A stretch of 46,998 bases of DNA from Syntrophomonadaceae bacterium (GTDB lineage: Bacteria > Bacillota > Dethiobacteria > DTU022). The stretch's first letter is position 1; every line of letters starts with the position of its first letter. The position numbers and the translations under genes were made by a program. The notes under the pieces are model-generated. The model was not told the origin of the DNA. It saw only the letters and a list, made by a program, of their open reading frames with translations, and made no database searches. The stretch is taken from contig PWYU01000016.1 of the NCBI GenBank assembly GCA_003567725.1, positions 1 through 46,998 of the forward strand, in the 5' to 3' direction. Positions 41,009-46,998 of the stretch are shown one piece after another.

Positions 41009-42613
41009 TTACCGGTGGGTGTAGTGCGGCAGAAGGACCGGTCCAATCCGGCCGTCGCCCACGCCGGCTTCTTCCAATTCCCGGTGATATGAAGACACGT
41101 GGTCAAGATTAAGCCCTTCAGGGGCCGGGAGATCCTTGCTCCTGGCTGCAGCGCTGGTACCGGCTCGCCGGCCGAAGACCAAAATATCGAGCAGTGAATT
41201 GCCCATTAAACGGTTGGTACCATGAATACCGCCGGCCGCTTCCCCTGCTACATAGAGATTCTCTACACTGGTGCGAGCTTGATCATCAATTAAAAGGCCC
41301 CCGTTTTGGTAATGCAGGGTCGGATAAATCAACATCGGCTCTTTACGGATATCAACATCAAAGCGCTGGAACTGGCGCAGCATAGCCGGCAGCTGTCGCT
41401 CAATAGTTCCTTCCCCGTGGATCATATCAATCATAGGCGAATCAAGCCAGACTGCGGTAAGACCCGTCGGTAAGGGCACACCCAGCCCTCTTTCCTCACA
41501 TTCGCGGATAATGGCTGAAGATTCTACATCCCTGGTTTCCAGGTGATAGACAAATTGATCGCCATTGATATTAAGCGGCTGGGCGCCCAGACCGCGGGTT
41601 TTTTCAGTGACCAAAAGCCCCAGGAGCTGCGGCGGGAAGGCGCCGCCAGTAGGGTGGTACTGGATAGAATCAGTATAAAGCGTTTTTGCCCCGGCCCGGT
41701 AGCCCATAATCAACCCGTCAGCCGTAGCTCCGTGGTGATTACTGGTCGGAAATCCGCGGTAATGCAACCTGCCCGATCCTCCGGTGGCGATGATCACCGT
41801 TTTGGCCCTGGCGATTAAATAATGTTCAGTTTCCAGGTTATAAAGAACCGCTCCGCCGGCACGGCCATCTTTATCGAGTAATATTTCCACCGCCGGGCTA
41901 AACTCAATCAAGTTTATACCCCTGTTATGAACTTCATCTCGTAAGGTCCGCATGATCTCGGCCCCGGTATAGTCGCGCGCGGCATGCATCCTTTTACGGG
42001 AAGTCCCCCCGCCGTGGCTGGTTATCATTGTACCTTCTTCATTTTTATCAAACATGGTCCCCAGTTTTTCCAGCCATTTAATAACCAGCGGTGCATCCAT
42101 CACCAAAGCGCGGGCCAGTTCGGGGACATTTTCCAACCGGCCGCCGCCTAATAGATCCAGGTAATGGATGGTTGGAGAATCATTTTCCTTGTCGGCAGCC
42201 TGAATGCCGCCTTGAGCCATCATGGTGTTAGCATCGCCAAAGCGCAGTTTCGTAGCTAAAAGAATCTTCGCCCCAGTTTCATGGGCTTTAAGAGCAGCCG
42301 AAGCCCCGGCCCCGCCTCCCCCAATAATTAAAACATCAACATCATAATCAGGGTCGGTTGTTAAATCTAGCTCCACTTCCCGGAGACGGCTGTAGGATTC
42401 GAAAACATCAGCCATCTCGCTGGGCATGCGAATTCCTTTATCCACCCCCACTTCTATATTACGGAAACCGTCTTCAATATAATCGGGATGAAAATTTTGC
42501 AAGACTTCCCGCCGTTCTTCCGGGGTCATCCGCGGATAATCAACGCCCACCCGGGAGGCTCTGCTAGCTTCCACTTTTTTCATCAATTCTTGTAACTGCG
42601 GTGTATAGGCCAA
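41009..42613 (-). CDS. Fumarate reductase/succinate dehydrogenase-like flavoprotein subunit
   Basis: FAD-dependent oxidoreductase expected to interconvert fumarate and succinate. About 534 aa. The first 90 residues are a family-specific extension without an FrdA counterpart. Then come the FAD-binding VDVLIIGGGGAGASAA (about 93-108) and NTMMAQGGIQAA. Substrate-site residues of FrdA are conserved: IQYHPTG, TEKTRGLGA, THR/Arg in ETRDVES, LHYQNGG and GTNRLMGNSLL. The histidine that covalently carries FAD in FrdA/SdhA is replaced by Asn129 (GDANTMMAQGG), so FAD should be non-covalent, as in L-aspartate oxidase. The start is TTG 42613, 10 nt from GGAGG; TTG 42622 is too close to it. It lies 24 bp after its Fe-S partner, and no membrane anchor gene follows. 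Confidence 0.88.
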   Translation of the reverse strand: MAYTPQLQELMKKVEASRASRVGVDYPRMTPEERREVLQNFHPDYIEDGFRNIEVGVDKGIRMPSEMADVFESYSRLREVELDLTTDPDYDVDVLIIGGGGAGASAALKAHETGAKILLATKLRFGDANTMMAQGGIQAADKENDSPTIHYLDLLGGGRLENVPELARALVMDAPLVIKWLEKLGTMFDKNEEGTMITSHGGGTSRKRMHAARDYTGAEIMRTLRDEVHNRGINLIEFSPAVEILLDKDGRAGGAVLYNLETEHYLIARAKTVIIATGGSGRLHYRGFPTSNHHGATADGLIMGYRAGAKTLYTDSIQYHPTGGAFPPQLLGLLVTEKTRGLGAQPLNINGDQFVYHLETRDVESSAIIRECEERGLGVPLPTGLTAVWLDSPMIDMIHGEGTIERQLPAMLRQFQRFDVDIRKEPMLIYPTLHYQNGGLLIDDQARTSVENLYVAGEAAGGIHGTNRLMGNSLLDILVFGRRAGTSAAARSKDLPAPEGLNLDHVSSYHRELEEAGVGDGRIGPVLLPHYTHR

Positions 42614-42637
42614 ACTTCTCAATCCTCCCTTTTGGAT

Positions 42638-43333
42638 TTACTGTTCAATATCCCGGTTATCATATAGTTCCTGCAGCTTTTCTTTATCGGCATTTACCAG
42701 CTCATCGATCTCTGTGTCCAGCTCGCCCGCTTTTATGGCCTCAGCCCGACTGGCAAGAAAAGCATCCGGTTTGGCCAGGTAGCGGCTGTAAAGTCGGCGG
42801 CCGGCTAAAGCGGCATTGTAATGTACGATATTGACCGGGCAGCGGGAAACACAAAGTCCGCACATCAGGCAGTCGAAAGATATATCGGCAGCCCTGGCAA
42901 AATCACCGCGCTGCAGGTAGGCAATATACTGCATAACATCAATATCCTGCGGACAGACTTTGGTACAGGAATTGCAGCCCAGGCAGCGGAACACTTCGGG
43001 GTAAAGTTGAGCAAAATGGGCCGTATCAGGTTTAATATCTTCCAGATCATATATAGCCTTTCTGGCCGGGAAAAAGGGAATCTGGGCCAGATACATCCCA
43101 TCTTCCACCTTGGTCTGACAGGCCAGACCCACTTTCAATTCAAAATCACCAGCTATACGGTAAACTGTAGCGCAGGCTCCGCAAAAACCGGCCCGGCAGC
43201 CCACACCGCGTTTTAGCTGATACCCGGCATACTCCATGGCATCCATGATGGTAAGGGTTTCCGGGACATGATATTTTTTGCCCATAATGAAAATATCAAT
43301 CATCTTGATGGTATCTTCTGCAGTATCGCTCAT
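42638..43333 (-). CDS. Iron-sulfur subunit of the fumarate reductase-like enzyme
   Basis: A 231-aa electron-transfer subunit. N-terminal plant-type [2Fe-2S] ligands: Cys46, Cys51, Cys54 and Cys72. Two [4Fe-4S] ferredoxin motifs follow: CLGCNSCTKVCP (Cys117-127) and CLMCGLCVSRCP (Cys155-165). Classical FrdB/SdhB has [2Fe-2S], [4Fe-4S] and [3Fe-4S]; here the last motif keeps a fourth cysteine, so a [4Fe-4S] is predicted. The CCG domains found in thiol:fumarate reductase TfrB are missing, as the protein ends after about 65 charged residues. Start ATG 43333 with GGAGGAGCTC upstream. It is upstream of the flavoprotein in the same operon. The electron donor is not evident. Confidence 0.88.
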   Translation of the reverse strand: MSDTAEDTIKMIDIFIMGKKYHVPETLTIMDAMEYAGYQLKRGVGCRAGFCGACATVYRIAGDFELKVGLACQTKVEDGMYLAQIPFFPARKAIYDLEDIKPDTAHFAQLYPEVFRCLGCNSCTKVCPQDIDVMQYIAYLQRGDFARAADISFDCLMCGLCVSRCPVNIVHYNAALAGRRLYSRYLAKPDAFLASRAEAIKAGELDTEIDELVNADKEKLQELYDNRDIEQ

Positions 43334-43360: not shown

Positions 43361-44704
43361 CTATTTATTTTCCGGCGGTTCGGCTATAAAACCCATTTCC
43401 ATGGCCATCCTGGTCTGGTCTTGAGCTCTTTTAATGAAAGATTTCGCTTTATCGTAACATTCCTCGCGGCTAATCGAAATTCGGGCCAAGCCTTGCTCAA
43501 TCCCTTTCATCGCAGTAACTGTAGCCACCCTGGGAAAGACTTCCCACATATCCATAGACGGCAAAATCATTTCCGGGTTCAAACCCCCATCAGGAGCACA
43601 GGCAGCCAGCTCTTCAGCGGCGGCAATACACATCTTGTCAGAAATACGAATGGCATGGATATCTAAAACCCCGCGAAATATGGCCGGAAACCCCAGGGAG
43701 TTGTTCACCTGGTTCGGGAAGTCGGATCGTCCCGTGGAAACAATTCTTGCCCCGGCTTCCTTGGCCTCCCAGGGCCAGATTTCAGGGACGGGATTAGCGC
43801 AGGCAAAAACGATGGCCTCTTTAGCCATACTCTCCACCCATGCTTTTTTAATTGTTTTAGGACCCGGCTTGGAAAGCCCGATTAACACATCGGCATCTTT
43901 GCAGGCCTCAGCTGCACCGCCGGCAACCTGGCTGCCGTTAGTAGTCTGGGCCAGTTCCCACTTGATGGGATGCTGTTCAATAAGCTCGGTGCGCCCTTTG
44001 TGCAAAGTCCCTCTACTATCAACTAAAATGATTTTTTCAGGATCCATACCGGCAGCAATAAAAAGCCTGACCGTACAAATATTGGCCGCCCCGGCCCCGA
44101 TTAGAACCGTTTTTACCTGGTCGATTTTCTTATCAACAATTTTTAAGGCATTGAAAAGGCCGGCCAGTGTAACCAGGGCTGTTCCCTGTTGATCATCATG
44201 CCAGACCGGAATTTCGCATTCTTTTTTAAGTCTATCCAAAACATAGAAACACTTCGGGCTGGAGATATCCTCAAGGTTTATCGCTCCAAAACTGGGTTGA
44301 AGCATCTTAACAAATTCAATCAGTTCATCGGCATCCTTTGTATCAACACAAATGGGAAAGGCATCAACTCCACCTAAATACTTAAACAACAGGGCCTTTC
44401 CTTCCATCACCGGCATGCTTGCCTCCGGTCCAATATCGCCTAAACCTAAAACCCTGGTCCCATCAGAAACCACGGCACAAAGATTAGCTTTATTGGTATA
44501 CTTGTAGACATCCTCTTTATTTTCTGCGATTTTTTTACAGGGTTCTGCCACCCCTGGGCTGTACCAGAGAGCAAAATCATTGAAATCGCGAACACAGCTT
44601 TTTAAGTTAACTTCAATTTTACCCCTGTAAAAAGAATGCAAACGCAAAGCTTCTTTAGCAGCTTCTTTACTTTTAACCAGGTAATCATCTCTGTCCATGT
44701 ACAT
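43361..44704 (-). CDS. Malate dehydrogenase (oxaloacetate-decarboxylating), malic enzyme
   Basis: Converts malate and NAD(P)+ to pyruvate and CO2, or the reverse. 447 aa. Conserved: YSPGVAEPC (about 48-56), GLGDIGPEASMPVMEGKALLF, catalytic Lys/Asp in VDTKDAD, INLEDISSPKCF, WHDDQQGTALVTLAG and the nucleotide fold IGAGAANICTVRL followed by LVDSRG. The acidic Asp after the second beta strand points to NAD preference. The start is ATG 44704, about 8 nt after CAGGG; a TTG at 44725 is possible but unsupported. It sits between fumarase and the fumarate reductase-like pair, which supports a malate-pyruvate link. Confidence 0.94.
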   Translation of the reverse strand: MYMDRDDYLVKSKEAAKEALRLHSFYRGKIEVNLKSCVRDFNDFALWYSPGVAEPCKKIAENKEDVYKYTNKANLCAVVSDGTRVLGLGDIGPEASMPVMEGKALLFKYLGGVDAFPICVDTKDADELIEFVKMLQPSFGAINLEDISSPKCFYVLDRLKKECEIPVWHDDQQGTALVTLAGLFNALKIVDKKIDQVKTVLIGAGAANICTVRLFIAAGMDPEKIILVDSRGTLHKGRTELIEQHPIKWELAQTTNGSQVAGGAAEACKDADVLIGLSKPGPKTIKKAWVESMAKEAIVFACANPVPEIWPWEAKEAGARIVSTGRSDFPNQVNNSLGFPAIFRGVLDIHAIRISDKMCIAAAEELAACAPDGGLNPEMILPSMDMWEVFPRVATVTAMKGIEQGLARISISREECYDKAKSFIKRAQDQTRMAMEMGFIAEPPENK

Positions 44705-44782
44705 AAGCACATCCCTGCCTTTCAAAGACTATAATCACTGCAGCAGTTAATTTTTAAAATACTGGTATACGTCAGGCTGGTC

Positions 44783-45334
44783 TCAGCGGGCATAAGACCT
44801 GGCCCCTTCAGAATAAAGATCGTTCCCGTAAGCGTCGTTAATGACAGTGGCCGGAAATTCTTCCACTTCCAGGCGATGAATGGCTTCAGCGCCTAGTTCG
44901 GGATAAGCCACTACTTCACATTTTTTAATCTTTTTGGAAAGCAAGGCTCCGGCCCCACCTACTGCAGCCAAATAAACACCTTTATACTTTTGTAATGCCT
45001 CTATGACGGCCTGGCTGCGCAGGCCTTTACCGATACAGGCCTTCATCCCATGCTCAAGCATTTTAGGGGTATAGGCGTCCATCCTGCCACTGGTAGTAGG
45101 ACCGGCCGAACCAATCACCTGTCCCGGCTTAGCCGGAGTCGGTCCGACATAATAGATAATTTGGCCTTTGAGCTCAATGGGTAAAGGTGCACCGCTATCA
45201 ATTAATGCAACTAATTTTTTATGAGCGGCGTCACGGGCAGTGTAAACAACACCGTTGACCAAAACATTATCTCCCGCTTTCAAAGAAAGCACATCTTGAT
45301 CATTAAGGGGTGCGTTAATAGTCTTTATATTCAT
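44783..45334 (-). CDS. fumB: Fumarate hydratase class I, beta subunit
   Basis: C-terminal half of the two-subunit oxygen-sensitive [4Fe-4S] fumarase, which interconverts fumarate and malate. 183 aa. Seen: NGVVYTARDAAHKKL (about 27-41), YYVGPTPAKPGQVIGSAGPTTSGRMDAY (in part, GPTPAKPGQVIGSAGPTTS), MIGKG-like ACIGKGLRSQ and a C-terminal EEFPATVINDAYGNDLY. Start ATG 45334, with AAGGAG 8 nt upstream, 38 bp after the alpha subunit. Confidence 0.94.
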   Translation of the reverse strand: MNIKTINAPLNDQDVLSLKAGDNVLVNGVVYTARDAAHKKLVALIDSGAPLPIELKGQIIYYVGPTPAKPGQVIGSAGPTTSGRMDAYTPKMLEHGMKACIGKGLRSQAVIEALQKYKGVYLAAVGGAGALLSKKIKKCEVVAYPELGAEAIHRLEVEEFPATVINDAYGNDLYSEGARSYAR

Positions 45335-45372: not shown

Positions 45373-46218
45373 TTAAATTGTTTTTTCCAGGTGACGGCAG
45401 GCATGACAGTTTATATTTACTGCTGCAGCCATACTGGCGATATGTGAGGGGTAAGTTTCAATATGAACAGCCAGGGCAAAAACCCTTCCTCCAAAACCCT
45501 GCGGTCCCACACCGAGATCATTAATTTTATCAAGGATCTTCTTTTCCAACCCGGCATACTTTTGATCAGGGTTCGGTTGGCCAACCGGCCGGAACAAGGC
45601 TTTCTTAGAATTTACCGCCACCTTATCAAAAGTTCCTCCAATCCCCACTCCCACTACAATTGGCGGACAGGGATTGGGACCGGCTGCTTTAACATGGTTA
45701 ACGACAAAGTCAATTAACCCTTCTTCTCCATCAGCAGGTTTAAGCATTTTAACAGCACTCATATTCTCACTTCCGCCCCCTTTAGGTGCAAAAGCGATCT
45801 TCACCTTATCACCGGGAACCAGATCCGTATATATAACGGCCGGGGTATTATCACCGGTGTTTTTTCGGTCATATAATGGATCTTTGACTATTGATTTGCG
45901 CAGGTATCCATCGGTATAGCCTTTTTTGACCCCGGCATTAATAGCTTCTTCCAGTGTGCCCCCCGTTAAGTGTACATCCTGGCCAATCTCAACAAAGAAC
46001 ACGGCAAATCCTGTATCCTGGCAAATGGGGATCTGCTCGTTTTTAGCAATTTCCAGGTTATCGATTAATTGTTTCAATACTTCTTTACCGGTCGGTGATT
46101 CTTCTACTTCAAGGGACTGTTTTAAAGCAGTAGAAACATCATCACCGAGATAAATATTAGCTTCCTCGCACATCCCAGCAACAGTGTCAGTAATAACCGA
46201 CACAGATAGTTCACGCAA
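45373..46218 (-). CDS. fumA: Fumarate hydratase class I, alpha subunit
   Basis: Fe-S-binding half of the class I fumarase. 281 aa. The three cluster cysteines are visible in IPICQDTGFAV (about 63), GPNPCPPIVVG (about 186) and INCHACRH near the C-terminus. The block KGGGSENMSAVKML is also typical. The family is close to L-tartrate dehydratase, but association with malic enzyme favours fumarase. The start is TTG 46218 with GGAGG 10 nt upstream, and a promoter candidate lies about 25 bp before it. It is the first gene of the fumarase-malic enzyme-fumarate reductase-like operon. Confidence 0.94.
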   Translation of the reverse strand: MRELSVSVITDTVAGMCEEANIYLGDDVSTALKQSLEVEESPTGKEVLKQLIDNLEIAKNEQIPICQDTGFAVFFVEIGQDVHLTGGTLEEAINAGVKKGYTDGYLRKSIVKDPLYDRKNTGDNTPAVIYTDLVPGDKVKIAFAPKGGGSENMSAVKMLKPADGEEGLIDFVVNHVKAAGPNPCPPIVVGVGIGGTFDKVAVNSKKALFRPVGQPNPDQKYAGLEKKILDKINDLGVGPQGFGGRVFALAVHIETYPSHIASMAAAVNINCHACRHLEKTI

Positions 46219-46443: not shown

Positions 46444-46998
46444 TCACTGATCCAAGCCGGTTATTCTCTTCATCAAATCATCCCAATCCCGGTCTATTTC
46501 TTCCTGCAAGGCTTTAATCGTCGGATCATCAACCTGCCTGAAGCGACGTTGTGCGCTTAAATACTCTTTTAAGGGCGTTCGCTTTTTTTCCGGGTAGTAA
46601 GTCATTTTCCACTGGTTGCCATCTATTATTTCGTAGAGGGGGAAAAAATTAGTTGAAACAGCCAGCCTGGAAAGATGAATGGTATCAGAGGAATCAGTTC
46701 CCCAGCCTGGCGGGCAGGGAGAAAGAATATGCATGAACCTGAACCCCTTGATCTGCTGTGCCTTTTTAAGCTTAGAATCCATATCCTGTGGAAAGGCAAG
46801 GGAAGCAGTGGCGGCATAAGGTATACCGTGTGCAGCCATAATCCGCATAATATCTTTTTTCTGGCCATGCTTAAACAGCGGATAGGGCCGGGTGCTGGTC
46901 CTTGCTCCGAAAGGTGTGGCGGAGCTGGTTTGCATACCGGTATTCATATATGCTTCATTATCATAACAGATAAAAATAAAATCCTCGTTACGCTGGGC
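46444..46998 (-). CDS. porB: Pyruvate/2-oxoacid:ferredoxin oxidoreductase beta subunit (partial, runs off the right edge)
   Basis: Thiamine-diphosphate-binding beta subunit of an anaerobic 2-oxoacid oxidoreductase that makes acetyl-CoA, CO2 and reduced ferredoxin. The frame is open to base 46998, so about 184 C-terminal codons are seen. The N-terminal edge reads RNEDFIFICYDNEAYMNTGM, the characteristic PorB segment, followed by SSATPFGA, AHGIPYAATASLAFPQD and ILSPCPPGWG. The N-terminal cysteine motif and the TPP GDG motif are outside the window. The CPPGW and MNTG segments favour pyruvate over 2-oxoglutarate as substrate. It is not in the fumarase operon; 225 bp and a promoter separate them. 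Confidence 0.9.
   Translation of the reverse strand, partial: AQRNEDFIFICYDNEAYMNTGMQTSSATPFGARTSTRPYPLFKHGQKKDIMRIMAAHGIPYAATASLAFPQDMDSKLKKAQQIKGFRFMHILSPCPPGWGTDSSDTIHLSRLAVSTNFFPLYEIIDGNQWKMTYYPEKKRTPLKEYLSAQRRFRQVDDPTIKALQEEIDRDWDDLMKRITGLDQ

Follow-up and report, generated by a model that had tools for sequence, protein, structure and literature searches.

Which electron donor serves a fumarate reductase-like protein pair that is encoded without a membrane anchor? The window, by which we mean the whole 46,998-nucleotide stretch of DNA analyzed here (contig PWYU01000016.1), derives from an uncultured soda-lake-type anaerobe of the Syntrophomonadaceae whose genome (2.39 Mb, 127 contigs) is 96% complete. 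The reduction of fumarate by NADH spans a large drop in energy, for which coupling to quinones is the classical arrangement. The original prediction assigned the pair to neither the quinone-linked Frd/Sdh enzymes nor the thiol:fumarate reductases (TfrAB), called its donor unexplained, and offered a soluble partner or a separately encoded module as options.

The pair closes an operon (Table 1) whose predicted order, fumA-fumB-malic enzyme-Fe-S-flavoprotein, was borne out by the open reading frames and their NCBIfam/Pfam domains. No CCG or anchor gene occurs in the window from porB to nth, again as predicted. The gaps between malic enzyme and Fe-S gene and between Fe-S and flavoprotein genes are 27 nt and 15 nt, respectively. 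The TTG start called by the program for the malic enzyme lacks a ribosome site, and an internal ATG is the likelier start. The nth gene directly follows the flavoprotein, and the CoA transferase found in relatives is absent there. In a member of the same genus (G009), the operon reads porG-GltD/PadH-like-porA-porB-fumA-fumB-malic-Fe-S-flavoprotein and is followed by a class III CoA transferase (L119). The PorB remnant in the window resembles PadI of the NADH-dependent phenylglyoxylate dehydrogenase, with a score below the PadI cut-off.

Table 1. Genes of the operon in the window and the Flx-type module on contig 36 of the same genome.
Feature	Location	Strand	Description
FrdA-like flavoprotein	41009..42622	-	537 aa; TTG start preceded by a GGGAGG-type ribosome site
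Fe-S subunit	42638..43333	-	231 aa; Fer2 + Fer4 (NCBIfam/Pfam)
Malic enzyme	43361..44725	-	NCBIfam/Pfam match
Class I fumarase beta subunit (fumB)	44783..45334	-	NF005310 above cut-off
Class I fumarase alpha subunit (fumA)	45373..46218	-	NF004885 above cut-off
2-oxoacid oxidoreductase beta subunit (porB), C-terminal part	46444..46947	-	Truncated by contig end
hdrCB-etfB-etfA-hdrA-flxD-flxC-flxB-flxA	L111:4401-12711, contig 36		Beside selA/selB/selD-like genes

The flavoprotein core is a FAD_binding_2 domain. Its predicted structure (pLDDT 81) has FrdA (1kf6) as top Foldseek match (E 8e-29), and VIA alignments with flavocytochrome c fumarate reductases and FrdA reach Z 33-36 over ~380-430 residues, scarcely touching residues 1-74. 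A conserved, family-specific N-terminal extension of ~90 aa (~92 aa in the window protein) is filled in 68/68 flavoproteins, and the C-terminal helical domain of FrdA/SdhA has no aligned counterpart. All FrdA substrate residues (mature E. coli numbering H232, E245, R248, R287, H355 and R390) are shared without exception by 68/68 family members, upholding the claim that they are retained. As the same six also occur in E. coli NadB and SdhA, they do not on their own single out a fumarate reductase: they would form a fumarate-reductase-type site, which does not by itself define the physiological substrate. Where FrdA/SdhA have the histidine to which FAD is covalently attached, 68/68 homologues, including the window protein, have Asn. 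In E. coli FrdA, loss of this histidine largely abolishes succinate oxidation and spares fumarate reduction. Its replacement thus supports the reductive direction.

The shared active-site residues leave some room for another substrate, either L-aspartate, as in an L-aspartate oxidase, or a substituted fumarate. A paralogous pair within a CaiB-HpcH-MmgE/PrpD cluster, described below, points the same way. We nonetheless regard this reading as very doubtful, as fumarase genes share the operon with the pair, the NadB model scores 254 bits against a cut-off of 452.75, and no NadA was found in the window genome. On the latter two grounds, a NadB role was rejected.

The Fe-S subunit carries a plant-type [2Fe-2S] motif (C46, C51, C54, C72) and two CxxCxxCxxxC motifs (C117-C127 and C155-C165). 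This composition, foreseen in the original prediction, recurs with both four-cysteine motifs complete in 72/72 homologues; E. coli FrdB has one complete. Because the second motif is complete, it is expected to hold a [4Fe-4S] rather than a [3Fe-4S] cluster. In Frd/Sdh, the [3Fe-4S] cluster adjoins the quinone site. The Asn at the FAD-histidine position and the two full four-cysteine motifs together favor the reductive direction and speak against an electron relay of the quinone type. The AlphaFold model of this subunit was poor (pTM 0.47), and fold matches from it were left out.

TfrA is the top NCBIfam match of the flavoprotein, at 321 bits against a curated cut-off of 718. The TfrB model scores 48 bits against the Fe-S subunit (cut-off 385), which matches TfrB positions 19-98 and, with 231 aa, has no CCG domain. 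The pair is thus not TfrAB as such, in keeping with the original prediction.

In a phylogenetic tree, all 20 members sampled from the family share a single clade (100/100) that excludes E. coli FrdA and SdhA, and the window protein is nested there among Hdr-linked branches. The original prediction had called for a phylogeny of the flavoprotein; in ours, the pair falls outside the E. coli Frd/Sdh clade. The tree also took 10 of the best-scoring Bacillota matches to the TfrA model, all below its cut-off, seven of which group with E. coli Frd/Sdh; its branching order holds relative to these matches and E. coli Frd/Sdh, not to methanogen TfrA.

These data bear on whether the pair could be a quinone-linked enzyme with a membrane anchor encoded elsewhere, which we find scarcely credible. 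The window genome has no match to Sdh_cyt (PF01127; PF02300 and PF02313 lie outside this search), a model that was positive in 11 of 14 control genomes, so the genome-wide anchor search suggested in the original prediction returned no Sdh_cyt homologue. No anchor was recognized beside the pair in the relatives' loci examined, the intact second four-cysteine motif predicts no [3Fe-4S] site, and the family clade stands apart from E. coli Frd/Sdh. The 4% of the genome that is missing could in principle contain an anchor gene. We rejected the quinone link on the strength of the Sdh_cyt result, the separate clade and the two complete motifs; these results accord with the earlier view that the enzyme is soluble and not quinone-linked.

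Relatives of the pair point to a different kind of partner. A scan with an aligned pair of Fe-S paralogues yielded at least 454 tblastn-confirmed stretches, substantiating the impression that similar pairs occur in other anaerobes. Eighty loci were retained; an Fe-S gene was recognized in 72 and a flavoprotein in 72, counts that include the window and a locus of its own genome. In most relatives examined, the pair shares one operon with hdrB (CCG)-hdrC-hdrA-flxDCBA. About 50 loci follow the order class II fumarase-hdrB (CCG)-hdrC-hdrA-flxD-FlxC-like-FlxB-FlxA with the pair last, and an AspT-type permease often lies 3' of this operon. HMMs named HdrA, CCG, an AsrA/ShyB-like FlxB and a NAD-binding AsrB-like FlxA. 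The fumarase/aspartase-hdrBCA-flxDCBA-pair order extends across gut Clostridia, Treponema, Halanaerobiales, Sporomusaceae and the cultured Ilyobacter polytropus. In I. polytropus DSM 2926, the operon lies on plasmid pILYOP01 (ILYOP_RS13115-13070) and comprises aspartate ammonia-lyase, hdrBCA and flxDCBA followed by the pair (ILYOP_RS13075/13070), whose flavoprotein shows 65.5% identity.

In other lineages (WOR-3, Aerophobetes, Stahlbacteria and Neomarinimicrobiota), hdr genes also surround the pair, but their arrangement differs. In window-type loci of soda-lake Syntrophomonadaceae and Dethiobacter, hdr/flx genes lie outside the pair's operon. One locus closely homologous to the window operon (L030) has fumAB-malic-pair with hdrB-hdrC directly after it. 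Linkage to hdr/flx within the operon is thus typical, not universal, for the family, and is absent from the window operon. A separately encoded CCG subunit, which the original prediction had named as evidence against itself, occurs in relatives but not in the window genome itself. As the relatives' pair lies beside Hdr-Flx, the missing donor is probably an Hdr-Flx complex encoded elsewhere.

Several loci deviate from these patterns. Three WOR-3-type loci (L033, L035 and L038) have the order hdrC-hdrB-hdrA-pair-second hdrA-flpD-FrhB-like and no recognized FlxA, which suggests a different electron donor. In a Neomarinimicrobiota locus (L089:10391-12974), genes behind the pair resemble, by their sequences, those for small and large NiFe hydrogenase subunits, which suggests H2 as a possible donor in this lineage. 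Another locus (L044:10477-15583) has, after the pair, UbiX-like and UbiD-like genes and two putative CaiB CoA transferases, which sets it apart from the other loci. In G012 and G023, long open frames hinted at an Fe-S/flavoprotein fusion; this was rejected, since both loci show two separate genes.

CCG domains in the window genome are confined to two HdrCB-type proteins, on contigs 36 and 79; stand-alone HdrB/HdrC and dedicated HdrA/Flx proteins were not found, absences that are not certain in a 96% complete assembly of 127 contigs. The contig 36 cluster (Table 1) is the sole intact Flx-type module found, and Rnf is encoded on contig 90. The contig 36 HdrCB matches TfrB positions 120-486; together with the Fe-S subunit, it spans the TfrB domains.

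The second HdrCB, on contig 79 (L112:1590-12357), is found with aldehyde ferredoxin oxidoreductase-like, Fe-S protein, HdrA, FlpD and NuoE/NuoF/NuoG-like genes. HdrA and FlpD each contain an in-frame TGA, likely encoding selenocysteine. From its gene content, the cluster looks like a putative bifurcating AOR-Hdr-NADH complex.

Contig 95 carries a further copy of the pair (L009:6712-12501; also L131 in G009), which shares 56%/51% identity with the first. It follows genes for a CaiB CoA transferase, an HpcH/CitE-like lyase and an MmgE/PrpD-family protein, and a 2-oxoacid oxidoreductase and an Old-Yellow-type enzyme are encoded nearby. This gene order would fit a methyl-branched route from methylsuccinate via mesaconate and citramalate to pyruvate and acetyl-CoA, in which the flavoprotein may act on a methylated substrate.

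Our survey of the window's family covered 43 genomes, 32 of which have the Fe-S gene (G007 with the contig 95 type only). The contig 36 module occurs in nearly all members, with or without the pair, and its FlxA was matched in 42 of 43 genomes, a few of these matches being weak or to the second type only. Since genomes without the pair also retain this module, it probably has a different core function. Most other pair-bearing genera of the family have a second module, hdrB-hdrC-hdrA-flxDCBA, as an operon of its own, whose HdrA is 64-67% identical to versions in gut fumarate operons versus 53-54% to the contig 36 type. When either this full module or a two-gene hdrB-hdrC form is counted, dedicated hdrBC(A)/flx genes are present in 24 of the 31 genomes that carry the window-type Fe-S gene and in 1 of the 12 that do not (Fisher p 5e-5), and in 17/19 versus 0/5 of the genomes that are at least 90% complete (p 5e-4); both p-values are optimistic, as the tests treat related genomes as independent. 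The option of a separately encoded module thus gained support at the level of the family.

A search for the dedicated hdrA-flx module found it in none of the 12 genomes of the window's genus and not in genus g10. A two-gene hdrB-hdrC operon remains in G009, G010 and G011, which are three of the five best-covered members of the window's genus, and in both g10 genomes, and was not found in the window genome or G005. The dedicated partner was probably lost in the window's genus and replaced.

The replacement could be another soluble donor, namely reduced ferredoxin, or NAD(P)H via the GltD/PadH-like subunit. The lack of dedicated hdrA/flx in the genus, the porG-gltD/PadH-porA-porB genes directly upstream in the G009 operon and the sub-threshold resemblance of the PorB remnant to PadI are all compatible with such a switch. 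However, por-PadH genes also precede the pair where a dedicated hdrBCA-flx exists (G036 L129 and G038 L120), so they are not a replacement for hdrBCA-flx, and G009, G010 and G011 keep hdrB-hdrC. We therefore consider this switch unlikely.

Our preferred interpretation, held with restrained confidence, is that the pair forms the catalytic half of a soluble, cytoplasmic Hdr-Flx-linked fumarate reductase, with the contig 36 module as donor in the window organism. Following the scheme for the Hdr-Flx family, NADH would be oxidized at FlxA and its electrons passed through FlxABCD to HdrA, where a flavin would split the electron pair. One electron would go to ferredoxin, feeding Rnf, and the other would pass through HdrC/HdrB (or HdrCB) to the Fe-S subunit. 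This subunit would relay it via one [2Fe-2S] and two [4Fe-4S] clusters to the flavoprotein, where fumarate would be reduced at non-covalently bound FAD. Malic enzyme and fumarase could supply the fumarate from pyruvate. In the window organism, the contig 36 hdrCB-etfBA-hdrA-flxDCBA module may have taken over as donor, with or without an hdrBC pair of the relatives' type. The potentials of fumarate/succinate (+33 mV) and NAD (-320 mV) (PMC5861303) allow a bifurcating mechanism. We tentatively speculate that this lineage kept a bifurcation-linked reductase, lost HdrA-Flx and rewired to the Etf-containing Hdr-Flx, making the latter a mix-and-match hub with interchangeable acceptors.

The pair could also run in the opposite direction, as a succinate dehydrogenase on a path from succinate through fumarate and malate to pyruvate and acetyl-CoA. 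The relatives' order por-fumAB-malic-pair-CaiB suits such an oxidative route with entry at succinyl-CoA/succinate. Yet the Asn at the FAD site in 68/68 homologues speaks against it, and NAD+-linked succinate oxidation is strongly uphill unless driven by confurcation, making this direction improbable in our judgment.

If the family couples fumarate to ferredoxin reduction, extra energy per succinate would be gained through Rnf, and many gut Clostridia, Treponema and sediment anaerobes would benefit. I. polytropus DSM 2926 is a cultured type strain with the complete operon on a plasmid. The window's genus is a natural experiment in which the reductase persists without its dedicated partner, and bears on what the minimal partner is.

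The donor is not unexplained, since Hdr-Flx lies beside the pair in relatives and comparable couplings have been proposed. The 'succinate operon' of Pseudoclostridium thermosuccinogenes contains a fumarate hydratase, seven Flx-Hdr locus tags, two fumarate reductase genes and a putative transporter (PMC7282089). NADH/ferredoxin-bifurcating fumarate reduction was already proposed for this organism (PMC7282089 and the 2019 preprint that it cites, 10.20944/preprints201912.0288.v1), and CRISPRi is reported for it (title of PMC9044749). This operon (CDQ83_RS03325/20) resembles the relatives' operons as judged by gene order, whereas the window pair belongs to a fumAB-malic operon without hdr/flx. In tubeworm symbionts, tfrAB is interspersed with flxABCD-hdrABC in rTCA clusters, and coupling was proposed from gene order (PMC6315080). 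The idea of Frd-Flx-Hdr coupling is the same, with the genes annotated as TfrAB there; we liken the systems by their description. A homologous module is the FlxABCD-HdrABC (Hdr-Flox) of Desulfovibrio, counterparts of which accompany the pair in relatives and occur on separate contigs in members of the window's family. The Desulfovibrio module is proposed to deliver electrons to a disulfide carrier such as DsrC, and in 2014 Hdr/flox had never yet been studied biochemically (PMC4215793); the relatives' module would instead serve fumarate directly. We found no biochemical proof for the pair's family in the openly accessible literature, and no pair-type enzyme in the rumen fumarate paper that we examined.

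With the methanogen TfrAB, the pair shares TfrA as best NCBIfam match and an Fe-S subunit resembling the N-terminal part of TfrB, while the organism's own HdrCB resembles the rest. It differs in scores far below the cut-offs and in lacking the CCG half of TfrB. With quinone-linked FrdABCD/SdhABCD, it shares the flavoprotein fold, as judged from the predicted structure, and the substrate residues, but has no anchor, covalent-FAD histidine or [3Fe-4S] motif pattern, and has an extra N-terminal region. The original prediction located the novelty in the donor; that question had been raised and an answer proposed earlier (PMC7282089, PMC6315080). To this we add that the pair is separated from its module, that the window's genus lacks the dedicated one and that pair and module co-occur across the family, together with the evidence from the clusters and the FAD site and a cultured carrier, I. 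polytropus.
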